A stretch of 10,255 nt of DNA from NCBI GenBank assembly GCA_002359465.1, contig DENA01000005.1, forward strand, positions 486-10,740, read 5' to 3'. The position numbers and the translations under genes were made by a program. This document shows, piece by piece, positions 1 through 10,255 of this stretch (positions are counted from its first letter, which is position 1; each line of letters starts with the position of its first letter). This DNA is from Ruminococcaceae bacterium UBA2656 (GTDB lineage Bacteria > Bacillota > Clostridia > Oscillospirales > Acutalibacteraceae). The notes beneath the pieces were generated by a model. The model worked only from the letters and a program-made list of their open reading frames with translations, was not told where the DNA came from and ran no database searches.

Positions 1-137
1 CAGCCGGACTCCCCCACCAGCCCAACGATTTCCCCCTTATCAATGTGAAACGAGATATCGTCAATGGCGGTGACTTTTCCTTTGCGCTTTTTGAATTCCG
101 TGCGCAAATGATTCACTTCTAACATTACTTCTGCCAT
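1..137 (-). CDS. Peptide ABC transporter ATP-binding protein, N-terminal fragment (DppD/OppD type)
   Basis: This is the first 45 codons of an ABC ATPase that would power the two permeases encoded just upstream, hydrolysing ATP on the cytoplasmic face. The visible part begins MAEVMLEVNHLRTEF, continues with a basic KKRKGK stretch and VTAIDDISFHI, and runs to the start of the Walker A loop (GLVGESG) before the window ends. The order LEV..LRTEF....AIDDISF....GEIVGLVGESG is the standard beginning of DppD/OppD subunits. The start at 137 sits 12 bp after the permease stop and has a weak ribosome site (TAGGTG). An ATG at 126 is an alternative start. The Walker B, signature and C-terminal oligopeptide domains lie outside the window, as presumably does a DppF partner. 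Confidence 0.85.
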   Translation of the reverse strand, partial: MAEVMLEVNHLRTEFKKRKGKVTAIDDISFHIDKGEIVGLVGESG

Positions 138-149
138 ACTTACACCTAC

Positions 150-1046
150 TTACTGGATTTTGGGATCGAGCGTATCTCTTAGGCCGTCTCCCAAAAGGTT
201 GAAAGCAAGAACCGTCAAAAAGATGATTCCGCCGGAAAAATATACGATGTGCGGAGCAACCCCCAGATAATTTCTGCCTGTGGAAAGCATGGCGCCCCAG
301 TCCGGCTCCGTCGGCTTTGCGCCGAAACCCAGAAAACTGAGAGATGCCGCCGCCAAAATAGCGGTACCGATACGCATGGTGAAGTTGACAATGATGCTCG
401 CGACGGTCCCGGGGAAAATATGCTTCCACATGATGCTTGCGTTGGAGCATCCCAGGGATCGCGCCGCCTCCACGTAAAGCGACTGTTTAACGGCAAGTGT
501 GGCGCTTCGCATAATTCTTGCAAAGGACGGCACGCTGAACACGGCGACCGCGATTACAACGTTGGAAAGCCCGGGCCCGATAACCGCGACAATGGCGATG
601 GCCAGAAGCAGATCAGGGAACGCGAGCAGAACGTCCGCACTGCGCATGATCAGGCTGTCAATCCAGCCGCCGTAGTATCCGGCGAGGATTCCCAAAATCG
701 CGCCGGCCGCCGCGCCGATCGTAACCGAACTGAGCGAAACCGACAGGGAAAGCTGGCTGCCTGCAAGCAGTCTGCTGAAAATATCTCTTCCGTACTCGTC
801 GGTTCCAAACAAATGCTTGGAATCAGGGGCGGAAAGAATCGCATTGTAATCCGGCGCGGCAGGGCTGAACGGTTCCAGCATCGGCGCAAGGAACGCGATA
901 ACAACAAGCAGAACGATAAAGACGGCCGCAATAACAGCTGTTTTTCTGCTCAGAAACTTTATAATAAAAGCCTTTGTCCGGCTCTGCCTTGGAACAGGCG
1001 CCTGCTCCGCATGAGGTACGTTTAAAGCCTTTTTTTCTTTAGACAT
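150..1046 (-). CDS. Peptide ABC transporter permease, GsiD/DppC type
   Basis: Second inner-membrane permease of a peptide-class importer, 298 aa. The N-terminus is cytoplasmic and polar, followed by a first membrane helix at about residues 37-56. The family motif LFGTDEYGRDIFSR is at 79-92. Further helices lie at about 103-125, 140-158, 160-176, 214-238 and 267-285. The cytoplasmic EAA loop that docks the ATPase is around 191-212 (YVEAARSLG ... KHIFP). The C-terminus LLGDGLRDTLDPKI is typical, and the whole protein resembles E. coli GsiD closely from memory. An in-frame ATG at 1070 exists, but the start at 1046 is preferred because AAGGAGG lies 8 bases before it. That ribosome site overlaps the stop codon of the upstream permease, so the two are likely translationally coupled. 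Substrate (dipeptides, glutathione or similar) is not decided by the sequence. Confidence 0.93.
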   Translation of the reverse strand: MSKEKKALNVPHAEQAPVPRQSRTKAFIIKFLSRKTAVIAAVFIVLLVVIAFLAPMLEPFSPAAPDYNAILSAPDSKHLFGTDEYGRDIFSRLLAGSQLSLSVSLSSVTIGAAAGAILGILAGYYGGWIDSLIMRSADVLLAFPDLLLAIAIVAVIGPGLSNVVIAVAVFSVPSFARIMRSATLAVKQSLYVEAARSLGCSNASIMWKHIFPGTVASIIVNFTMRIGTAILAAASLSFLGFGAKPTEPDWGAMLSTGRNYLGVAPHIVYFSGGIIFLTVLAFNLLGDGLRDTLDPKIQ

Positions 1047-1059
1047 TTTGCAATCCTCC

Positions 1060-1983
1060 TTAACTTTCATAACGTATCTTCGGATTTAAGACGCCATAAA
1101 GCAAGTCAACGATCAGGTTGATGACGACAAATTGCAAAGAAAACAGCAGCAACTCCGCCTCAATGACGGGATAGTCACGGAACTGAATCGAATCGACGAG
1201 CAGTCTGCCCATTCCGGGAATGGTAAATACGGTTTCCACCAGTATCGAGCCGGCAAGCAGTCCGCCGATTTGCAATCCGGCAACCGTGACAACTTCAATA
1301 AGGGAATTCCGGAAGGCATGCTTCATTACCACCATGGATTCCTTTTGTCCTTTTGCGCGCGCGGTACGAACGTAATCCTCTTTCATGTTTTCCAGCATGG
1401 AGGAACGCGAAAAGCGCGCCATAATGGCCATAACGCCGACTCCCAGGCTGAAGGACGGCAGAATATAGCTTTGAATATTATCCAGCCCTCCGGTCGGCAG
1501 CCACCCCAGTTGTACGGAAAAAATCTGAATCAGGACAAGACCCAGCCAGAAAACCGGTATGGATATACCGGAAATGGCAATCAGCATTCCTATATAGTCC
1601 CCCCATTTCCCTCGCTTTACCGCTGAGAATACCCCTAAAAGCACCCCGATAATTAAAGACCACACCAAAGCGCATCCCGCCAGCGTAAAGGTAGGTTTAA
1701 AGCGCGGCCCGATCATTTCGGTTACGCTTTGCCCCGTTGTGGAAGAGGTTCCCAGATCCCCGTGAAACATCCTGTTGAGATACATAAAATACTGATTCAT
1801 AAGAGGCTGATCCAGTCCCAGGCTCTGACGCGTCCGGTTGATTTCCTCCATGGTAGCATCCTTGCCCGCCATGAGGCGGGCCGGGTCACCGGGAATCATG
1901 TGTACAAACATGAAAATAATAAAGGAAATAACCAGCATCAGGGGGATGGTCCCCAATACTCTTTTAATAAAATAACGGCCCAA
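1060..1983 (-). CDS. Peptide ABC transporter permease, GsiC/DppB type (TTG start)
   Basis: First inner-membrane permease of the importer, 307 aa, forming a heterodimer with the GsiD-like subunit. It starts MGRYFIKRVLGTIPLM. A first helix is at about residues 9-30, followed by HMIPGDPARLMAG and the conserved LGLDQP segment (about 55-60). Further helices are at about 99-121, 133-156, 174-190, 231-253 and 277-300. The EAA loop YVRTARAKG is at 204-212. GsiC hallmarks include SGISIPVFWLGL, LGWLPTGG, GMGRLLVDSI, RDYPVI and the LNPKIRY end. The reading frame stays open upstream to 2103, but that stretch overlaps the preceding gene and does not look like a permease. A TTG at 1983 has GGAGG 7 bases before it and matches the family N-terminus, so TTG is the chosen start. 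The gene ends 13 bp before the next permease. Confidence 0.92.
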   Translation of the reverse strand: MGRYFIKRVLGTIPLMLVISFIIFMFVHMIPGDPARLMAGKDATMEEINRTRQSLGLDQPLMNQYFMYLNRMFHGDLGTSSTTGQSVTEMIGPRFKPTFTLAGCALVWSLIIGVLLGVFSAVKRGKWGDYIGMLIAISGISIPVFWLGLVLIQIFSVQLGWLPTGGLDNIQSYILPSFSLGVGVMAIMARFSRSSMLENMKEDYVRTARAKGQKESMVVMKHAFRNSLIEVVTVAGLQIGGLLAGSILVETVFTIPGMGRLLVDSIQFRDYPVIEAELLLFSLQFVVINLIVDLLYGVLNPKIRYES

Positions 1984-2013
1984 ATGACGACCTCCAGTCA
2001 AGACTAATCTATA

Positions 2014-2049
2014 AAAGGGCCCGGCAACATGGCAGTTACCAGACCCTTT
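2014..2049 (-). promoter_or_regulatory. Intercistronic stem-loop between binding-protein and permease genes
   Basis: In the transcript the 79-bp gap contains AAAGGGTCTGGTAAC, a 6-base loop (TGCCAT) and GTTGCCGGGCCCTTT. These form a 15-bp stem without mismatches, counting three G-U pairs. Only four Ts follow, then ATAG, so it is not a classical strong terminator. Such hairpins after the binding-protein gene are commonly mRNA stabilisers or partial terminators that keep the binding protein in excess over the membrane subunits. That role is inferred here. Confidence 0.7.
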
Positions 2050-2062
2050 CCAAATGCAAAGT

Positions 2063-3670
2063 TTAGTGGGCGAGCGTAGCCTGTGCGCAGGAGATTGATC
2101 CATCCGCCATCATATAAACATTGCTTGCATAATTCTTAATACCGTACTGTACGACCGGTTGGCCAAGAAACAGCCACGGCGCGTCGTTCCAGATGGTTTT
2201 CTGAGCCTCGGCGTAAATGGAAGTCAGTTTTTCGGGTGAAGTTTGAGAAAGGCCCTGATCCAGAAGTTTATCGATCGCCGGATTGTTGTAGTAAGCTGTA
2301 TTTGCATTGACCGGCGGAATATTCTGGCTGTAGAACAGTGCGCGAAGAGCACCGTCCGCGTCGCCGCTCGACGGAGACCAGTTTACATACCACATATCGA
2401 TCTTGGATTCCGCAGCGGTCTTTGCTTCGTTGATCTTATCGTTCAGCGTAGCGCCTTCCATCGGCACAACTTCAGCGGTGATACCGACCTGAGCGAGCTG
2501 CTGGTTGATGAACTGCATGCCCTTTACGGAGTCGGAAGTATTGTCAGACCATATCGTCGTCTTAAAGCCGTTCGGATAGCCGGCCTCTTTCAAGAGTTCC
2601 TTTGCTTTCTGAATATTGAACGCGTATTCTTCCTGCTTGCTGTAATACTGGGTTGTGGAAGCCATCGGAGAGGTCGCATGGTCTCCGTAGCCGCCGTAAA
2701 CCACTTTAACAAAGGCATCCTTGTCGATCGCGTAGTTCATTGCCTGGCGAACCTTGACGTTATCGAACGGCTTATGGCTCATATTCAGTGTCACATAATA
2801 GACAATATTGGAAGGTACGGACTCAACCTTGACGTCCTTTGCGCCGTCAATGGATTTGATCTGCTCCGGGGGAATCGGATAAACCATATCGGCTTCGCCT
2901 GTCTGAAGCATGGCGATGCGGGAACCGGCTTCCGGAACAACCTTGAAGGTAATGGAGTCGACGCCCGGCTTGGTGCCCCAGTAGCTATCGTTGCGAACAA
3001 CGGTCAAGTGATCCGCCTGATCCCACTCCTTCAGCTTGTAAGGACCGGTGCCAACCGCGACGGAATTCAGCTTTGTGCCGTCTTTAATGGCTTTTGGACT
3101 GGCGATGCCGAAGTTGGTCATCTTGTTGATGAATACGCTGTAGGGTTCTTTCAGCGTAATCTGAATGGTGTTGGCATCCGTGCATTTTACCTCTTTTACT
3201 TTGGCAAAATATTTGCGCTCTTTCAGGTTGTTCTTTTCATCCATGCAGCGCTCGATGTTTGCCTTTACGGCGTCTGCATTAAAGTCGGTGCCGTCCGTGA
3301 ATTTAACGCCCGTCTGAAGGGTAAAGGTGTAAATAAGCCCGTCCTTCGAAACGGTGTACGATTTCGCAAGCTGCGGTACGATATTCTTCATGTCCTTGTC
3401 AAAGGTCAAAAGCGATTCGTACATGGTGCGGTTTGCAGAAATGGTGTTGGTGGACGTCATATTGTGCGGATCAAGTGTCAATACGGTTTCGGACGTCGCA
3501 ATTACAAGATCATTGTCCTTTGATTTCGCGCCGGCATTCGCATTTCCGGAGGCGCTTGGCTGCGCCTGAGAGCCGGTGGAATTTGTCCCGCCGGAACCGC
3601 AGGCCGTAAACAGCATCGCGCTGGCAAGGACAAGCGATACAATCGCAATTGCTTTTTTACGTAGTTTCAT
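2063..3670 (-). CDS. Peptide ABC transporter substrate-binding lipoprotein, GsiB/DppA type (SBP family 5)
   Basis: Extracytoplasmic binding protein of 535 aa that captures the transported peptide-like ligand for the two permeases downstream. The N-terminus is a lipoprotein signal: KLRKK, a hydrophobic core at about residues 7-21, then LFTAC with the lipidated Cys at 24. A Gly/Ser/Asn-rich linker runs to about residue 52. The SBP_bac_5 fold follows, with LVIATSETVLTLDPHN, MYESLLTFDKDMKNIVPQLA, KFTDGTDFNADAVKANIERC, VGTGPYKL, KPFDNVKVRQAMNYAIDKDA and ELLKEAGYPNGF all recognisable. Several of these and the region around the QQLAQVGI segment match E. coli GsiB closely from memory, so a glutathione- or dipeptide-type ligand is plausible but unproven. 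AAGGAG lies 7 bases before the ATG. It is the first gene of the operon, with a long leader upstream. Confidence 0.93.
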   Translation of the reverse strand: MKLRKKAIAIVSLVLASAMLFTACGSGGTNSTGSQAQPSASGNANAGAKSKDNDLVIATSETVLTLDPHNMTSTNTISANRTMYESLLTFDKDMKNIVPQLAKSYTVSKDGLIYTFTLQTGVKFTDGTDFNADAVKANIERCMDEKNNLKERKYFAKVKEVKCTDANTIQITLKEPYSVFINKMTNFGIASPKAIKDGTKLNSVAVGTGPYKLKEWDQADHLTVVRNDSYWGTKPGVDSITFKVVPEAGSRIAMLQTGEADMVYPIPPEQIKSIDGAKDVKVESVPSNIVYYVTLNMSHKPFDNVKVRQAMNYAIDKDAFVKVVYGGYGDHATSPMASTTQYYSKQEEYAFNIQKAKELLKEAGYPNGFKTTIWSDNTSDSVKGMQFINQQLAQVGITAEVVPMEGATLNDKINEAKTAAESKIDMWYVNWSPSSGDADGALRALFYSQNIPPVNANTAYYNNPAIDKLLDQGLSQTSPEKLTSIYAEAQKTIWNDAPWLFLGQPVVQYGIKNYASNVYMMADGSISCAQATLAH

Positions 3671-3711
3671 AAGACCACTCCTTTTTGTTCGTAATTTACA
3701 TTATCATTCGT

Positions 3712-3741
3712 ATTGTCCGATCGATTATGTAACCGGACAAT
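3712..3741 (-). promoter_or_regulatory. Inverted repeat 42 bp upstream of the binding-protein start
   Basis: ATTGTCCG at 3712-3719 and CGGACAAT at 3734-3741 are perfect 8-bp inverted copies separated by 14 bases. On the minus strand the two arms also give TTGTCC and GACAAT with 17-bp spacing, a mediocre -35/-10 pair (4 of 6 each). The element could therefore be an operator laid over a second, weaker promoter, or a hairpin in the leader RNA. The sequence alone does not separate these. Confidence 0.45.
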
Positions 3742-3943
3742 GCTTACAGAAATAAAGTCTGCCGGCTTGCAGGAAAACAAACTGAAAATTTCAAGTTCAG
3801 GAAATCGATCCAAATTACTCAGTTGATAACATAATGTTACCAATCAGCTGCCAGCAGCAGCAATATATCCACTATTTTTCAACATTTTCTATTGGAATTT
3901 ACATATCAATATAAGTTTCTTTTAATAAATCACATAATGTTTT

Positions 3944-3970
3944 TAAACTCACTTTATTAACTTGAGTTTA
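3944..3970. promoter_or_regulatory. Putative operator over the transcription start
   Basis: TAAACTCA (3944-3951) and TGAGTTTA (3963-3970) are perfect 8-bp inverted arms with an 11-bp spacer. The right arm touches the -10 element of the promoter at 3970-3998, and the repeat covers roughly positions -7 to +20 of the expected transcript. A repressor bound here would block initiation. No regulator gene for this operon is seen in the window. Confidence 0.45.
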
Positions 3971-3998
3971 TAATATCAAAATTAAAGTCCAAAGTCAA
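3970..3998 (-). promoter_or_regulatory. Sigma-A promoter for the peptide importer operon
   Basis: Read on the minus strand, TTGACT (3993-3998) is followed after exactly 17 bases by TATTAT (3970-3975). A TG dinucleotide one base before the -10 gives an extended -10 (TGATATTAT). The predicted start near 3963 gives a leader of about 290 nt before the first gene, which is unusually long and repeat-rich. No shorter-range promoter of similar quality was seen. Confidence 0.6.
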
Positions 3999-4130
3999 CA
4001 AAAAAATACATGAAAATCAAATACTTTTATTCACAAAACCCAGAAACGGGATTCAGAATAATAGTGGTTATCAACTGATTTCGTAGCTCTTTGACTCATT
4101 GATACTTCTCCCCTTCGTGGGATAATCAGG

Positions 4131-4313: not shown

Positions 4314-4355
4314 CTTCATCACCTCGTTTCATGTGTATTGCAGTTCCGGATTGTC

Positions 4356-4496
4356 CTATGCAATTTCGCTATAAAGATCATCTATATGGCAGCCTAGTAT
4401 TTTAGCTAACTGGGGGAGCCTGTCAGAGCGTGGAAAACTACTCCCCGTCTCCCACATTGCAACAGTGGACTGGTTGGTTTTTAAAATCTGTGCCGG
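4356..4496 (-). pseudogene. XRE-family HTH regulator, 5'-truncated remnant
   Basis: Read on the minus strand, this frame gives AQILKTNQSTVAMWETG followed by SSFPRSDRLPQLAKILGC, HIDDLYSEIA and a stop. That is the second half of a Cro/CI-type helix-turn-helix domain: the recognition helix NQSTVAMWETG, then the P..D.L..LA..LGC..DDL ending that is very typical of XRE proteins. The first helices and the start codon are missing. Upstream of the AQIL segment the frame loses resemblance (RTLLILP) and hits a stop at 4515-4517. Position 4496 is therefore an estimate of where homology ends. It lies just upstream of the 60-aa gene and was probably its operon partner. It is not expected to make a functional DNA-binding protein. 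Confidence 0.7.
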
Positions 4497-4497
4497 A

Positions 4498-4770
4498 AGA
4501 ATTAGAAGCGTTCTTTATATTGTGAAAATGCTTTTAAAAGACACGGTATCCTTAGAAAACTTATCGTATAAAGACACTATTAATTACATATCGATATTAT
4601 ACCAGGGGAAGGTCACCAAATGGATCTGCAGATTCATTCTCTCCTCGACCCATAAGTTGCTTGTCATCCCGGATGAAAACAAAAAAGAGGTTCGCTACAC
4701 TCCGGACAGTAGCTACGATATTCATAAATACAAAGATAAACTGGTTGAAGTGACAAACAGATATTTATAA
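4498..4770 (+). pseudogene. C-terminal remnant, probably of a type I R-like restriction endonuclease family protein
   Basis: The frame reads KMLLKDTVSLENLSYKDTINY, then ISILYQGKVTKWICRFIL, VIPDENKKEVRY, and ends YDIHKYKDKLVEVTNRYL. From memory this pattern (a YKDT segment, KWICR, PDENKKE, then DI.KY.D....V..RYL) matches the C-terminal domain of stand-alone proteins with an HsdR-type N-terminal nuclease domain. The assignment rests on recall and needs a profile search. The open frame extends left to a GTG at 4465, but those codons lie antisense to the XRE remnant and have no ribosome site, so the true N-terminal part looks lost. The ATG at 4528 also lacks a ribosome site. The gene ends 27 bp before the PH-domain gene in the same direction. 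Confidence 0.45.
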
Positions 4771-4797: not shown

Positions 4798-5235
4798 ATG
4801 GCCTTTAAAAACTTAATGAATGGACTGCCCGGCAACATGAACGAGGTATCTGTTGATCAGTTCCAAACAGAGTACGGCCCCTATTTGATGGATGGTGAAA
4901 CAATCACAATTGGGTTTAAGCTTGTTCGTGATGTGGTACTTTTTACAGATAAACGTATTGTATCTTCCGACAAACAAGGCACTACCGGCCAAAAGATGCG
5001 GGTGACATCCATTAAGCTGTCCACCATCATTGATGTCACGGCTGAAACCGCTGGCTTTGGCGTGGATGACAGCGAGATCACCGTTACATTTATTATCACC
5101 CCATATCTACACGCAAACACCTTACAGGAGGACAGCAAAAAATTTGAGTTCCCGAAGAAATACAACATTCAGCCATTATATAAAATGCTCGAAGAATTAT
5201 CCCATACGAATTTCGAACGCATAAACAATATTTAA
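4798..5235 (+). CDS. Bacterial PH-domain protein (bPH_1, PF08000-like)
   Basis: A 145-aa protein with one bacterial pleckstrin-homology-like domain. The family's signature lies in the middle: FKLVRDVVLFTDKRIVSSDKQG (about residues 40-61), where strand KLVRD leads into FTDKR and a KQG.TG.K turn. This is followed by I.L..I..V..ETAG (about 72-86) and a closing helix at about 123-136. In known members the N-terminal NEVSVDQFQTEYGPYL stretch is a short helix before the domain. Biochemical role is unknown for most of this family. There is no signal peptide or membrane segment, so it is cytoplasmic. AGAGGA lies 7 bases before the ATG. It sits between an endonuclease remnant and the recombinase, all on the plus strand, so it is probably cargo of the element. 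It appears intact, with usual or slightly greater length. Confidence 0.85.
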   Translation: MAFKNLMNGLPGNMNEVSVDQFQTEYGPYLMDGETITIGFKLVRDVVLFTDKRIVSSDKQGTTGQKMRVTSIKLSTIIDVTAETAGFGVDDSEITVTFIITPYLHANTLQEDSKKFEFPKKYNIQPLYKMLEELSHTNFERINNI

Positions 5236-5291: not shown

Positions 5292-6698
5292 ATGCAAAAC
5301 AAGAAATTCGTCCATGTCGGATGCTATGTGAGAGTATCTACGGAAAATCAGATTGAGAATTACAGTATCGAAGAGCAGATGGAACGCCTAAAGGCTTATT
5401 GCTCCGCGAAAGACTGGACGATCTATAAAATCTATACAGACCCCGGTTACTCCGGAGGAAACACAAATCGGCCGGCGCTGCAGCAGATGCTTCAGGACGT
5501 TCACACCGGCCGGCTTGATATGATCGCCGTCTATAAGCTGGACCGCCTGAGCCGTTCCCAGAAAGACACGCTCACTTTGATTGAGGACGAATTTATCGCG
5601 CACAACGTTGAATTCGTCAGCATGTCCGAAAACTTCGATACGTCCACCCCGTTCGGTCGGGCTATGATCGGGATTCTGTCCGTATTTGCGCAGCTCGAAA
5701 AAGATCAGATCACCGAGCGCTTTACGATGGGCCGGATCGGACGCAGCAAAGCGGGATTTTATCACGGTGGCCCTACTCCACCGACCGGATACAAATATGT
5801 TGACGGTGAATTAGTTGTTGACGTTTACAAAGCCCCCCAGGTGCAGGAAGTGTACGACCGATTTTTAAGCGGTTACAGCATCAATTCAATTCAAAGGTAC
5901 ATGCATGATAAATACGGAGATTGGAACAGCCATTCTCTGGTCATCCACGTTCTCCGGAATTCGGTTTACATTGGGAAAGTTAAATTCAAAGGTAAAACAT
6001 ATGACGGTGTTCATCAGCCAATCCTATCAAAATTTGTATTCGCGCGGGCACAGGAGCTGATGCAATCTTCCAGCCGTGAGAATGGTAAAACCAACTCGCA
6101 GAGAACACCTTTTCGTGCCGGTTATTTGTTATCAGGTTTGGTATACTGTAGAAAATGCGGTGCCCGCTACAGCGCAAATCATGGGTTTTATAAATGCTAT
6201 TCCCGTGCAAAGTGTGATCGGAAATACATAGTTGATCCAGACTGTAAAAACAAAAACTGGCCGATTAATGATCTCGACGCGCTGGTAACAAGTGAAATTG
6301 AAAAACTGAAATACGACAGCAATTATTTAAGTGAGATCATAAAAGGTAAAACAAACGATGCGCCTAAAATTGATACTGCTGCTGTTACCTCCCGGATCAA
6401 AGAACTCGATAAGCAAATTAACCGCATGATCGATCTGTATCAAATCGGATCTACCCCCATGGAACAGATTTCTGGCAGAGTTGAAAATTTGCAAAAGGAA
6501 AAGAACGCGCTTCAGGTGCAGCTATCCGGAGGAAATGGTAATCGCAACGACACTGCCAAGCGTTTTATTGAAGCTTTGAACCACTTTGATGAAGTGTTTT
6601 TCAGCGGGGCAATCGAAGAAAAAAGGGCATTTGTTTCCAGTGTAATTGAGTCCATCTGGATTGATGAGGAAAACGTCCAGATCAAATGGAGAATATAG
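5292..6698 (+). CDS. Large serine recombinase (site-specific integrase)
   Basis: A 468-aa recombinase that would cut and rejoin DNA at attachment sites through a phosphoserine link, integrating or excising its element. The N-terminal resolvase domain (about 7-150) has the nucleophile Ser16 in YVRVST, Arg14, and the D84-R85...R88 cluster in YKLDRLSRS. A QLEKDQITERF helix leads out of it. The recombinase domain (about 165-250) contains PTGYKYVDGELVVD. A zinc-ribbon-like region has CRKCG (286, 289) with Cys 302, 308 and 318. A coiled coil is at about 365-411, and the end (VIESIWIDEENVQIKW) is typical, so the protein looks complete though at the small end of the family. GGAGG lies 8 bases before the ATG. 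All catalytic residues are present. It stops only 22-28 bp before feoB coding sequence, which marks it as the edge of the inserted element. Confidence 0.95.
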   Translation: MQNKKFVHVGCYVRVSTENQIENYSIEEQMERLKAYCSAKDWTIYKIYTDPGYSGGNTNRPALQQMLQDVHTGRLDMIAVYKLDRLSRSQKDTLTLIEDEFIAHNVEFVSMSENFDTSTPFGRAMIGILSVFAQLEKDQITERFTMGRIGRSKAGFYHGGPTPPTGYKYVDGELVVDVYKAPQVQEVYDRFLSGYSINSIQRYMHDKYGDWNSHSLVIHVLRNSVYIGKVKFKGKTYDGVHQPILSKFVFARAQELMQSSSRENGKTNSQRTPFRAGYLLSGLVYCRKCGARYSANHGFYKCYSRAKCDRKYIVDPDCKNKNWPINDLDALVTSEIEKLKYDSNYLSEIIKGKTNDAPKIDTAAVTSRIKELDKQINRMIDLYQIGSTPMEQISGRVENLQKEKNALQVQLSGGNGNRNDTAKRFIEALNHFDEVFFSGAIEEKRAFVSSVIESIWIDEENVQIKWRI

Positions 6699-6720
6699 AA
6701 ATCTCTGTTGCAAAATTGTA

Positions 6721-7578
6721 TATGCCATGTGTATGGGATTCGGGTGCAATGCCTGCGGCGTAGCGGGATGCAAAATTATTGATTCGCCGCGCGAAAGGCT
6801 GATTGCCGTCATAACGAATAACTTTGTCCCCTGTAACGGGCGCTTCCCTACGCTGATCGCCATCATTACCATGTTTTTTGTCGGAACTGCTTCAACACCG
6901 TTTCAGTCTTTTTTCTCCACATGCATGCTGACCGGTACTATTATTCTGGGAATTCTTATGACTTTCTTTATTTCAAAACTGCTGTCTGTAACAATTTTAA
7001 AAGGGATTCCTTCTTCTTTTACGCTGGAGCTTCCGCCTTACCGCAGGCCCCAGGTTGGAAAAGTGATTATACGCTCCATATTCGACCGCACACTGTTTGT
7101 TCTTGGAAGGGCTGTCGCTGTGGCTGCTCCCGCCGGATTAATCATCTGGCTGCTGGCAAATATTCATGTAGGCGGAACCAGTCTGCTTCTGCACTGTTCC
7201 GACTTTCTCGACCCTTTTGCACACCTTCTGGGCCTGGACGGGGTCATCCTGCTCGCGTTTATACTGGGATTTCCCGCCAATGAAATTGTGGTTCCCATTA
7301 TCATTATGGCCTATATGTCGACGGGAAGCATTCTTGAACTGGGAAGTCTTGGCGAACTGAAGGAACTGCTGGTCGGCAACGGATGGACCTGGATGACAGC
7401 CGTGTGTACCATGCTGTTTTCCCTGATGCACTGGCCGTGTTCCACGACCTGTCTGACCATCCGGAAAGAAACACAGAGCTGGAAATGGACGGCTGTCTCT
7501 TTTGCGGTGCCCACTATCGCGGGCATGGTAATCTGTTTTCTTTTTGCCGGTACCGTAAGGCTTTTTGGTTTGCTGTGA
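6721..7578 (+). pseudogene. feoB: FeoB ferrous iron transporter, C-terminal part, split from its 5' half
   Basis: FeoB imports Fe2+ across the inner membrane using an N-terminal G-protein domain and a C-terminal membrane channel. Here only about 285 codons of the channel remain, compared with roughly 600-800 aa for intact FeoB. Recognisable blocks are MCMGFGCNACGVAGCKIIDSP, RERLIAVITNNFVPCNGRFP, LELPPYRRP, LGLDGVILLAFILGFPANE, and the C-terminal WPCSTTCLTIRKET. The G domain and the first gate region are missing. Homology starts at about the codons for AMCMGFG (6724 onward), immediately after the recombinase gene. No ribosome site precedes the in-frame ATGs at 6727 or 6733, so this piece is probably not expressed as a protein. 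The frame is otherwise intact to its TGA, which suggests recent or reversible disruption. Upstream in-frame codons back to 6646 belong to the recombinase in another frame. Confidence 0.9.
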
Positions 7579-7669: not shown

Positions 7670-8314
7670 TCAGTGCTCCATCATCTTAACACCATTGCTT
7701 GTACCGATCCGATCCGCGCCGGCCTGAATCATATTCATAGCGTCCTCATAGGTTCGAACACCGCCGGAAGCCTTTACCTTCGCCCTTCCGTTCACAGCAC
7801 GCTTCATCAGTTCGACGTCGTGGACGGTGGCGCCGCCGGTACTGAAGCCGGTGGATGTCTTTACAAAATCGGCGCCCGCTTCCACAGCAAGTTGACAGGC
7901 TTTTACTTTTTGCTCATCGTTTAAGAGACAGGTTTCAATAATTACCTTCAATAACGCCTTCGGATGTGCTTCGCCGACAACAGTCCTGATATCCTGAAGA
8001 ACGGCCTCATCATCCCGGTCGATCAGTGCGCCGATATTCAGGACCATATCCACTTCACCGGCACCGTCCTTCACCGCCTGCTTTGTTTCAAAAGCCTTTC
8101 CCTTTGTGGACATTGCGCCGAGCGGGAAGCCAATAACACAGCACACGGTGACACCAGAATCCTTTAAAAGCTCGCTTGCCAGCGGAACATAATACGAATT
8201 GACGCAGACGGAAGCAAAATGGTATTCCCTTGCTTCCTTGCAGAGCGTTTCTATCTGTTCTTTGGTCGCGTTTGGCTTTAAAAGCGTGTGGTCAATATAA
8301 GTTTCCAATCCCAT
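7670..8314 (-). CDS. deoC: Deoxyribose-phosphate aldolase
   Basis: Cytoplasmic class I aldolase that cleaves 2-deoxyribose 5-phosphate to glyceraldehyde 3-phosphate and acetaldehyde in deoxynucleoside catabolism. The 214-aa protein has the usual length. It begins [17 protein letters not shown], with the family IDHTLLKP motif. It contains VCVNSYYV, the GFPLGAMST segment, and VDMVLNIG with Asp89 of the proton relay. The Schiff-base lysine Lys152 is in FVKTSTGF, the second lysine Lys181 is in [10 protein letters not shown], and IGTSNG forms the phosphate site near the end. AGGAGG lies 7 bases before the ATG. It follows the rbsB-like gene by 119 bp on the same strand, which suggests that the imported sugar, or a nucleoside-derived pentose, feeds this reaction. 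A hairpin in the gap may lower its expression relative to rbsB. Confidence 0.96.
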
Positions 8315-8389
8315 GATTTTTCCTCCTGTATGGTTGGTTTGTAGTTTCTTTATTCAAAGGGTAAGTTCTGCCCATTATTTTCACCGAAA

Positions 8390-8424
8390 ACCGGTGGGCC
8401 GCTATGAAACTGCAGTCCACCGGT
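8390..8424 (-). terminator. Possible weak terminator or attenuating hairpin between rbsB and deoC
   Basis: On the minus strand ACCGGTGG and CCACCGGT form an 8-bp GC-rich stem. One A-C mismatch and one further C-G pair extend it, around a loop of about 15 bases. Only TTTTC follows the stem. It begins 9 bases after the rbsB stop. Partial termination or mRNA 3'-end protection is likely, allowing some read-through into deoC. Confidence 0.55.
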
Positions 8425-8433
8425 AAGATCCGA

Positions 8434-9435
8434 CTAATCTCTGGTTTTTATGGAATCGACATTGTCTTTTGTCACTAAGGTGGATTCGAGGATTACGCTC
8501 TTTTCGACCTTGTCGCCCTTCAGATATTTTACTGCGGTCTGAACGGCGGTTTTGCCAAGGAAATACGGGGGCTCGTTAATAGTAGCCTTCATTTTGTCTT
8601 CTTTAATAGCCTTCATTGTGTCATCAAGGCAGTCATTGCCAACCAGTACGATGTCTTTTGTTCTGCCGGCTGCTTCAATGGCCTCGAGGCATCCGAGCGC
8701 CATTTCGTCGTTAGCGGCATAAACAGCCTGAATATTCTTATTTGCCTGAAGAATATTTTCCATGACCTTCATGGCTTTGGCTCTGTCAAAATCCGCACTC
8801 TGCGTAGCAACCTTTTTAATGTCCGGATATTTTGCAATGACATCGTTAAAGCCTTTGCTTCTGTCCTGCGCAACATTCGTGCCCATAATGCCTTGAATCT
8901 CTACGACATTCCCTTTTCCTTTGACAGTGTCGGCAATAAACTGTCCTTCAAGGCCGCCCGCCTTGATCGCATTGAAGCCCATATGGCTGACAACATCTCC
9001 GCCCTTTGCGGCACGGTCGATCGTAATAACAGGAATTTTCGCATCATTCGCTTCCTGAATGGCAGCTACAATCGCATCGCTGTCGGCCGGGTCAATAATA
9101 ATGAGGTCGGGTTTTTGTGTAATCAGGTTTTCGACATCCTTCATCTGGGTGGACGCATCGTTCTGCGCGTCGGTTACGACCAGCTTGGCTCCCAACTCTT
9201 CCGCGCCTTTCTGAGCGCCTTCTTTCACGCTGACAAAGAACGGATTGGTCTGTGTATTCATTGAAAGACCAATGACGAGCTGTTTGTTTGAGCTTTGGGC
9301 AGGTGAAGCATTCTCCGCTGTCTTGGATTCTGATTTTGATTCAGCCGTTGCGGCTCCGGTGGAACATCCGGCGGCCGTCGCGGCAATCATAGCTGCGGAC
9401 AGTACCAGCGCAAATAATTTTTTTGACCTTTTCAT
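8434..9435 (-). CDS. rbsB: Ribose-like sugar ABC transporter substrate-binding lipoprotein
   Basis: Extracytoplasmic sugar-binding protein of 333 aa (peripla_BP_4 / RbsB family) working with the permease encoded just upstream. The signal is MKRSKKLFALVLSAAM with lipidated Cys24 in AAGC, followed by a Ser/Lys/Glu-rich linker to about residue 49. The binding fold starts KQLVIGLSMNTQTNPFFVSV. Other family blocks are DPADSDAI (115-122), IPVITIDR (134-141), EIQGIMGT, AQDRSKGF, ADFDRAK and ANDEMALG (241-248). Compared from memory with mature E. coli RbsB, the ligand positions N13, F15, F16, D89, R90, R141, F164, N190 and D215 are kept. N64 is Asp115, F214 is Asn267 and Q235 is Glu288, so the ligand may not be ribose itself. 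The start at 9435 is chosen for its signal peptide and a GGGAG site 6 bases upstream; the longer frame to 9528 overlaps rbsC. Confidence 0.9.
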   Translation of the reverse strand: MKRSKKLFALVLSAAMIAATAAGCSTGAATAESKSESKTAENASPAQSSNKQLVIGLSMNTQTNPFFVSVKEGAQKGAEELGAKLVVTDAQNDASTQMKDVENLITQKPDLIIIDPADSDAIVAAIQEANDAKIPVITIDRAAKGGDVVSHMGFNAIKAGGLEGQFIADTVKGKGNVVEIQGIMGTNVAQDRSKGFNDVIAKYPDIKKVATQSADFDRAKAMKVMENILQANKNIQAVYAANDEMALGCLEAIEAAGRTKDIVLVGNDCLDDTMKAIKEDKMKATINEPPYFLGKTAVQTAVKYLKGDKVEKSVILESTLVTKDNVDSIKTRD

Positions 9436-9460
9436 AAACTTCTCCCTTTCTTTTTGCAAT

Positions 9461-10255
9461 TTATTGATTAACTTTAGCTGACAAGTCCTTAAATTTCTTG
9501 TCGGCCAGTACGGCGATAAGAATGACAATACCCTTTACAATATTGGTAGCAAACGGATTTACGTTCATCAGTGTGAGGATATTATCAAGCACCCCCAAAA
9601 TCAGTGCGCCGATTACCGTTGGAAGAATAAAGCCTTGGCCTCCCGCCAGACTGGTTCCGCCGATGATAACGGAGGCGATGGCGTCCATTTCATATCCTTC
9701 GCCCGCTGTGGCGGATGCCGTGCCGAGCCTTGCGGTAAGGATGATACCGGCGAGGCTGGAAAGCAGCGCGATAATAATATAGACGATCCATTCGTTCTTC
9801 ACGACAGGGATTCCGGAAAGCCTGGCTGCCTCACGGTTTCCGCCGATTGCGTAAACCGTGCGCCCGTAAGCGGTGTGTGTAATCAGAATATAGGCAGCCA
9901 GATACACGAACAATAAAATAATAATCGGGACGGGAATTCCGGCAAGGCTGCCTTTTCCCACGGCCTTATAGATGTCCGACTGTACGGAAATCGGCGAACC
10001 GTTGGTATAAACCAGAATGCAGCCCCTCAGGAGGGTCATCATTGCCAATGTGGCGATAAAGGCCGGAATCCCGCATTTTGCGACAAAGAATCCGTTGATA
10101 AAGCCACAGATCAGTCCGGTTAACAAACCGATACCGATAGCGAACGGAACGGAGTCCGTCGCCTGCAGCACACCTGCGGAAAACGCGCCCGCCAGTCCTA
10201 CCACGGAGCCTACCGAAAGATCAATTCCACCCGTTAAGATCACAAACGTCATTCC
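9461..10255 (-). CDS. rbsC: Ribose-type ABC transporter permease, partial (RbsC family)
   Basis: Inner-membrane permease of a carbohydrate ABC importer (BPD_transp_2 family). The N-terminal part is beyond the window edge and about 264 codons are visible. They begin GMTFVILTGGIDLSVGSVVGL, the hallmark GIDLSVG segment of RbsC. Further family blocks are FINGFFVAKCGIPAFIATLAMM, YAIGGNREAARLSGI, GEGYEMDAIASVIIGGTSLAGG and the NIVKGIVILIAVLAD end. Hydrophobic helices occur throughout. It ends 25 bp before the rbsB-like gene, so the two are clearly co-transcribed. A cognate RbsA-type ATPase should lie upstream (to the right), outside the window. Confidence 0.93.
   Translation of the reverse strand, partial: GMTFVILTGGIDLSVGSVVGLAGAFSAGVLQATDSVPFAIGIGLLTGLICGFINGFFVAKCGIPAFIATLAMMTLLRGCILVYTNGSPISVQSDIYKAVGKGSLAGIPVPIIILLFVYLAAYILITHTAYGRTVYAIGGNREAARLSGIPVVKNEWIVYIIIALLSSLAGIILTARLGTASATAGEGYEMDAIASVIIGGTSLAGGQGFILPTVIGALILGVLDNILTLMNVNPFATNIVKGIVILIAVLADKKFKDLSAKVNQ

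Follow-up and report, generated by a model that had tools for sequence, protein, structure and literature searches.

How does a gene for a large serine recombinase come to stand directly in front of a feoB gene that lacks its upstream part? This question is raised by the stretch of DNA analyzed here (the window, 10,255 nucleotides, C29:486-10740), which comes from a 2.69-Mb draft genome of Ruminococcaceae bacterium UBA2656 (G000) that is 85.9% complete and consists of 39 contigs. The original prediction was that a recombinase element had inserted inside feoB, with the recombinase at the edge of the element and the crossover core in about 6699-6740.

Two halves of feoB and their junctions

The stop codon of the recombinase gene (6698) is separated by 28 bp from the ATG (6727) of the feoB 3' part, in agreement with the spacing of about 22-28 bp noted originally. 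This part (6727-7578, plus strand) begins MCMGFGCNA, contains the Pfam FeoB_C and Gate domains, and comprises 283 codons without a stop, corresponding to residues 435-717 in the numbering of the congener G002. Everything before MCMGFGCNA had been noted as missing, and the upstream part is indeed absent from C29, where the sole other match is to a different feoB at the far end of the contig. A search for the 5' part and a short repeat, as had been proposed, located the 5' part on a second contig (C14:2166-3485, minus strand), where it encodes 439 amino acids and ends ...GKQALTMCMV*, at the same codons where the 3' part starts; intact relatives read ...GKQALTMCMGFGCNA at this place. The gene is identified as feoB by Pfam FeoB_N and FeoB_C. 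The 5' half also matches TIGR00437 with 247.7 bits, under the whole-protein cut-off of 315.65, and Gate similarity is present in both halves, weak and below the Pfam cut-off in the 5' half.

Both junctions contain an identical 12-bp core, CCATGTGTATGG, at window positions 6725-6736 (attR, plus strand), within the predicted interval, and at C14:2171-2182 (attL). On the recombinase side, the attR core is preceded by an attP-derived arm, TGCAAAATTGTATATG (6709-6724, plus strand), that resembles the attP-like arms of viral contigs and the attR of relatives. As expected for a large serine integrase, attL and attR share this short core and together rebuild the attB of relatives. The feoB genes of the congeners G002, G003, and G010 run uninterrupted across the site, in keeping with an insertion inside the gene, and are 90-91% identical to the 3' half of G000 (91% over 283 residues for G002). 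A junction shared by relatives that lack any feoB 5' half, or element ends with no core in common, would have spoken against the original prediction; the two ends do share a core, and in relatives, either the same recombinase-feoB junction is accompanied by a matching 5' half or the gene is uninterrupted.

These results confirm that a mobile element with a phage-type integrase cut feoB in two in this genome. Based on the split gene, the common core, the intact gene and the same junction in relatives, and the attP-like arms, the split very probably arose through recombination, by a large serine integrase of the temperate-phage type, between its attP and an attB in feoB. A mis-join that separated the halves during assembly might be suspected in so fragmented and incomplete a draft, but the same junction anatomy is found in genomes assembled as a single contig (G005, G212, and G094 for integrase clade c1, to which the window integrase belongs, and G347 for clade c2), and we regard such an artefact as hardly credible.

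Contigs C14 and C29 both terminate within the element; C14 shows ∼2.2 kb of the insert and C29 ∼7.2 kb. A join of the right ends of C14 and C29 through a common feoB paralogue (both stop at EDSGYM codons) was considered and rejected as unlikely: the query matches the C14 piece as two separate segments, a pattern shown by the ∼620-aa feoB type, the piece at the end of C29 is similar to the 675-aa type that adjoins feoB in G005, and such a join would turn the rest of the chromosome into the "element." The host flank beyond the 3' part carries, on the minus strand, a gene for a deoC-like aldolase (7670-8314, PF01791), outside the element, and genes for a ribose-type ABC transporter (8434-10255), namely its sugar-binding protein (8434-9528, PF13407) and a permease assigned by reading (9461-10255). 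This cluster (7670-10255, L011) lies between feoB and the next feoB paralogue in G000, whereas a permease gene and a feoB paralogue directly follow feoB in G005 (L103).

The integrase, its crossover site, and the content of the element

The recombinase gene (5292-6698, plus strand, 468 aa) adjoins attR and so occupies the predicted edge position. Its product contains the complete domain set of large serine integrases (Resolvase PF00239, Recombinase PF07508, and Zn_ribbon_recom PF13408) and matches the phage integrase family phrog_95 (PHROG 95) with an E value of 2.5e-120. Residue S16, presumably the catalytic serine, and its surroundings are invariant among eight aligned clade c1 members. The best of the named phage integrases is 46% identical (among the best 15 of 1199 records, all 1199 of which are below 60%), and those listed, at 37-46% identity, include the ones of Stenotrophomonas phage BUCT702, Brochothrix phage BL3, and Enterococcus phage phiFC1. 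A scan of viral contigs with the window integrase recovered one relative, at 40% identity. Similarity to XisF, the excision recombinase of the fdxN element, is near full-length and distant, with a score against NF041201 (154.6 bits) that falls far below the curated cut-off for XisF membership (375). When compared by integrase sequence, the system resembles phage large serine integrases with an intragenic attB (PHROG 95) in its domain order, the position of the integrase at the element edge, the symmetric attP-like site beside the gene, and the short attL/attR core; its own target gene is feoB.

With the clade c1 integrase of G212 as a query, 28 loci were found on viral contigs, and 21 of these were read behind the integrase. 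An unbroken 44-bp near-palindrome directly follows the integrase in six of the 21 (L299-L302, L307, and L313, with integrases 49-57% identical to that of G212). The arms of these six sites resemble GCAAAATTATATA, the centre reads TG in two and CA in four, and the symmetry exceeded the best of 1000 shuffles in four, the best shuffle having equalled it in L299 and L307. Two other loci run into feoB (L303, in reverse, and L304), seven end at the integrase stop, and no near-palindrome was present in the six loci whose integrases are 37-43% identical to that of G212. The attP of G000 itself is seen as two halves only, on different contigs, and the unbroken symmetric form is that of the related viral contigs. 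By reading, mismatches between attL and attR in G007, G303, and G367 leave core positions 3-4, 6-7, or 9-10 as places for the crossover; because the centre of the palindrome falls at positions 6-7, the crossover would most likely be at the TG at 6730-6731. The elements of G367 and G140 are integrated the other way round, which would fit an attP with CA at its centre. On viral contig L326, feoB residues 474-431 come after a 71% relative of the integrase of another feoB-associated clade (c3) and lie on the opposite strand, and c3 may likewise integrate in reverse orientation.

In the mechanism that we propose, the attB would consist of the feoB codons for ...LTMCMGFGCNA, with which the attP of a temperate-phage-type integrase would recombine, with strand exchange at the central TG. 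This would leave feoB in two pieces, the 5' part closing with attL (C14) and the 3' part opening with attR (the window), and would place the integrase gene beside attR. The core is read in one and the same frame in intact feoB and at either junction, so that precise excision, by the integrase and an excision factor, would rejoin feoB in frame.

A possible source of such a factor is a 60-63-aa protein of the BOW99_gp33 type, encoded on the strand opposite to the integrase, that has a counterpart by similarity in the clade c1 element of eight of nine genomes (weakest E value 7e-5, in G140), none having been found in the c1 element of G137. The three proteins tested (from G000, G007, and G367) belong to family NF047423. 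In G000 the gene is on the C14 side (C14:238-429), and the other seven genomes have it no more than about 2.5 kb from the integrase gene. Related viral contigs contain similar matches, mostly weaker, and a search of c2, c3, and c4 loci, incomplete ones among them, found no counterpart. We infer that this protein is a candidate excision (directionality) factor.

The element of G000 appears to be phage-derived, and decayed or re-purposed, probably with a peptide-transporter operon. This oligopeptide/dipeptide-type ABC transporter (opp) operon (1-4016, minus strand) contains genes for a binding protein (2063-3670) and two permeases (1060-2103 and 150-1070; Pfam SBP_bac_5 and BPD_transp_1) and, by reading, the start of an ATPase gene at the left edge of the window. 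Because it lies on the element side of attR, the operon is probably cargo, though the unbridged contig ends allow another explanation. Its binding protein is 85-89% identical in the congeners G001, G008, and G009, which lack a clade c1 integrase; only 32-35% relatives were found in G002, G003, G005, and G010, and DNA similarity of the region ends at ∼4016. Possible phage debris (4340-4770) comprises a Cro/CI-type HTH-like fragment (∼4350-4470, minus strand), which was read by eye and has no family hit, and an open reading frame (4465-4770, plus strand) that matches only the end of PHROG 4225, annotated as an endonuclease (profile positions 269-354 of 357). A bacterial PH-domain protein of 145 aa, matching PF08000 (E value 1.6e-30) and phrog_7115 (function unknown), is encoded at 4798-5235 on the plus strand. 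Reading of the element sides of C14 and C29, which cover a partly assembled element, revealed no structural or packaging genes. On the attL side, L009:657-1586 encodes a Cys-rich protein weakly like copper-storage Csp1 (18.5 bits, cut-off 100) and a second protein, with a hit to a PHROG of unknown function. Some features sit uneasily with integration as we describe it, in that C14 and C29 both stop short of spanning the insert, an opp operon is an odd cargo, the BOW99_gp33-type gene of G000 lies on the C14 side, and the c1 integrase of G137 is off the junction.

Integrases at feoB in related genomes

An integrase-only query identified nine members of clade c1, with 57-100% identity, in 398 genomes of the host family, the Acutalibacteraceae; four hits at 36-38% (G176, G412, G123, and a second one in G137), with no feoB in their 1.5-kb flanks, are excluded from this count. 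A feoB half directly adjoins the integrase in eight of the nine genomes, the other half having been located by searching all nine with intact feoB, and hits of clades c2 and c3 adjoin feoB too, which bears out the prediction of a portable, widely conserved attB. In G005, the entire element is 3.2 kb and lies between the feoB halves on one contig. The inserts of G212 and G094 are ∼40 kb each; that of G212 is a 40-kb prophage with PHROG hits to terminase, portal, major head, tail, endolysin, RecT, and RecE (seven proteins tested), and that of G094 is related to it and mosaic. The 11.8-kb insert of G367 encodes a LacI-type regulator, a transporter permease, and a family-1 glycosidase, and clade c1 elements may thus carry metabolic cargo. 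Phage structural genes were not recognised by reading in this element (L157:3184-15000), parts of whose sequence read N.

The feoB halves lie on different contigs in G007, G303, and G140. The G000 integrase is 75% identical to those of both G005 and G007, though the feoB 3' identities are 91 and 78%, respectively; because integrase identities do not track feoB identities, common descent of these three insertions is unsupported. Between attL and the integrase of G005 (L103:13500-15160) are several very short open reading frames, some of them followed, by reading, by a terminator-like GC-rich stretch and a T run. In G137, the clade c1 integrase lies away from the feoB junctions, which are themselves rearranged. 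Its feoB is broken at both the c1 site and the c3 site (L162, L163, and L164), with pieces in conflicting orientations on two contigs (C9 and C7), suggesting a large rearrangement between integrase sites.

The feoB 3' half is present in 179 of the 398 genomes at E <= 1e-70, and at least 24 of these 179 have an integrase-associated feoB junction (9 c1, 6 c2, 9 c3, and 1 c4; each genome is counted once, G137 being in both c1 and c3). This count leaves out G395 and G230, in which a feoB part starts at one of the insertion sites and no integrase lies beside it. Inserts range from <3 kb to 40-kb prophages. The insertion sites are three, near residues 394 (c4), 437 (c1 and c2), and 471 (c3), all within 80 residues. 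In best local alignments, the c2, c3, and c4 integrases are 21-36% identical to clade c1, and the members tested contain the same three Pfam domains.

Clade c2 (530-568 aa) is found at the same ATGTG as c1 in G347, G391, G410, and G169 and adjoins the same boundary in G095 and G040. When c2 was used as an integrase-only query with 1.5-kb flanks, feoB was present at all six hits with >=44% identity and at none of the 12 below (38-41% identity), which were left out of the clade; a scan of viral contigs with the c2 integrase found no relative. Clade c3 (527-553 aa among six members compared) is found near residue 471, ∼34 codons past the c1 site, in G313, G244, G373, G159, G122, G137, G189, G110, and G222. 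The same type of query gave the expected feoB boundary in nine of 12 c3 hits with >=50% identity. The feoB part starts at residue 465-474 beside c3 in G244, G373, G159, G122, G189, G110, and G222 (the junctions of the last three being taken from alignment ends), and the c3 integrase of G137 abuts residue 475; G313, whose flank-search row begins at residue 417, was counted on junction comparison. The expected boundary was lacking in G369, where only residues 615-712 adjoin and an intact feoB is found elsewhere, in G211, which is cut by a contig end, and in G230, with no feoB in the flanks. At 36-45% identity, feoB was absent beside all 18 c3 hits examined (a 19th is a second G230 hit). Because feoB stands beside the closer c2 and c3 hits and is absent below, targeting of feoB is a property of particular subclades. 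Clade c4 (493 aa) is found near residue 394 in G254, where the integrase start is ∼280 bp from the feoB 3' part. A 59% relative in G053, from another family, lies beside a feoB part that starts at the same place, and c4 is probably a fourth feoB-hitting clade.

Fate of the split gene

No stop codons were found in the feoB halves of any of the 18 split genomes tested, with 234-640 codons compared in each (17 of the 24 and G230; G137, G095, G040, G254, G189, G110, and G222 were left out); stops in the match rows of G140, G303, and G159 lie outside the compared codons, at junction ends. The unsplit feoB of G322 contains five in-frame stops, so this test can detect decay. Pairwise dN/dS values for pairs with a split genome were 0.015-0.17 where dS was computable, the highest being from pairs with G007 and from G391-G212, where dS is >1. 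Among intact pairs, dS could be computed for three, which gave 0.036-0.079.

The inserts of G347 and G391 share, in the same order and place, a LigB/AMMECR1-domain gene, a radical-SAM gene, and the integrase gene (75, 69, and 60% identical, respectively), and that of G391 has further open reading frames. The LigB/AMMECR1-domain gene is single-copy in both genomes, so that the only one found lies inside the feoB element, beside the radical-SAM gene (L217 and L218), and a search of the unsplit relative G431 yielded none. The feoB 3' halves of G347 and G391 are 87% identical, with a dN/dS of 0.045. In an unconstrained simulation over half the G347-G391 dS, ∼22 stops per lineage were expected and none of 300 runs was stop-free, compared with no stops observed; when the insertion was taken to be young (0.01 substitutions per site), stop-free runs numbered 171 of 300. 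This pair would be the best case for long-term constraint while split, with dS near saturation and a common descent of the insert that we infer. Vertical inheritance of the G094 and G212 prophages was considered as evidence of selection on the split gene, and this argument is weakened by the dS of the phage genes (0.39-0.47), which exceeds that of host genes (0.26-0.30); separate prophage arrivals therefore fit as well.

The account toward which we lean slightly is that insertion permanently inactivated feoB, with halves that look healthy because they were split recently, paralogues that cover the function, and a hotspot that reflects conserved DNA favoured by integrases. Other full-length feoB paralogues were found by searching G000, and loss of iron uptake is therefore not to be assumed. 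Separate acquisitions, to which the genus integrase identities point, and separate arrivals of the G094 and G212 prophages also fit this account, as do the pairs with split G007, which reach a dN/dS of 0.17 versus at most 0.079 for intact pairs. What it explains less readily is that all 18 split genomes lack stops and that the G347/G391 3' half has so low a dN/dS despite an insert diverged to 60-75% identity. These stop-free halves hint instead at regulated excision, in which some condition (sporulation, low iron, or phage induction) would rebuild feoB. The frame-preserving core, the intact integrase, the small companion protein of clade c1, and the simulation at G347-G391 divergence are consistent with such a switch; against it are the unspecified ages of the insertions, the assumed common descent of the G347/G391 insert, the stop-free runs at a young age, and the fact that feoB is not a sporulation gene. 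On the sequence evidence, regulated excision may be a serious possibility, if a rather unlikely one.

That the cell makes each half as its own chain and that the chains combine into a functional FeoB is improbable in our judgment. The insertion sites of all clades fall centrally within the membrane part, and the low dN/dS and the Gate similarity on both halves would suit a split protein; however, no convincing ribosome-binding site was seen by reading before window position 6727, and where the insertion is inverted, the integrase gene and the 3' half are far apart. A broader proposal, that one feoB across the family is a recurrently domesticated DNA switch, split and rejoined through regulated excision by unrelated integrase clades, is doubtful; if it were true, ferrous-iron uptake via this FeoB would be set by reversible DNA rearrangement outside sporulation genes.

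Permanent or not, an interruption of this kind is already known. Gene-intervening prophage-like elements of spore formers (skin(Cd) in sigK, SPbeta in spsM, and gin in gerE; PMC5025042, PMC4191935, and PMC5595907) likewise place a recombinase element in an open reading frame that precise excision rebuilds. For those elements, excision in sporulation has been demonstrated and accessory or directionality factors identified; for the feoB element, excision is a prediction and its factor a candidate, and the interrupted gene encodes a metal transporter rather than a sporulation protein. Durrant et al. (2022; PMC10083194) describe several unrelated large serine recombinase clusters converging on one gene, with one conserved site in a prolyl isomerase gene and another target in a Mg-chelatase-type ATPase gene; feoB differs from these convergent targets in being hit at three sites. 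The terms "feoB," "ferrous," and "iron" are absent from the main text of that paper, whose supplementary tables may list feoB. In the literature as accessible, titles and opening abstract lines of papers concerned with feoB and integration mention no such target; in PMC6070778, feoAB is described as island cargo, with the attB in dusA. Within these sources, feoB as an integrase target was thus not found in print, and the unusual aspect is how densely, and by how varied a set of integrases, a single iron-transporter gene is hit.

With feoB, a conserved metal-transporter gene joins the list of integrase targets, at three sites and for at least three (probably four) clades. Tools for integration in anaerobes could be based on its att sequences, and whether the small feoB elements are passengers or switches is a testable question. 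Durrant et al. (PMC10083194) also link DUF4368 to multi-targeting large serine recombinases. The c2 integrase of G347 (L217:3445-5037) has a DUF4368 match (27.0 bits, cut-off 25), yet its near relatives all flank feoB.
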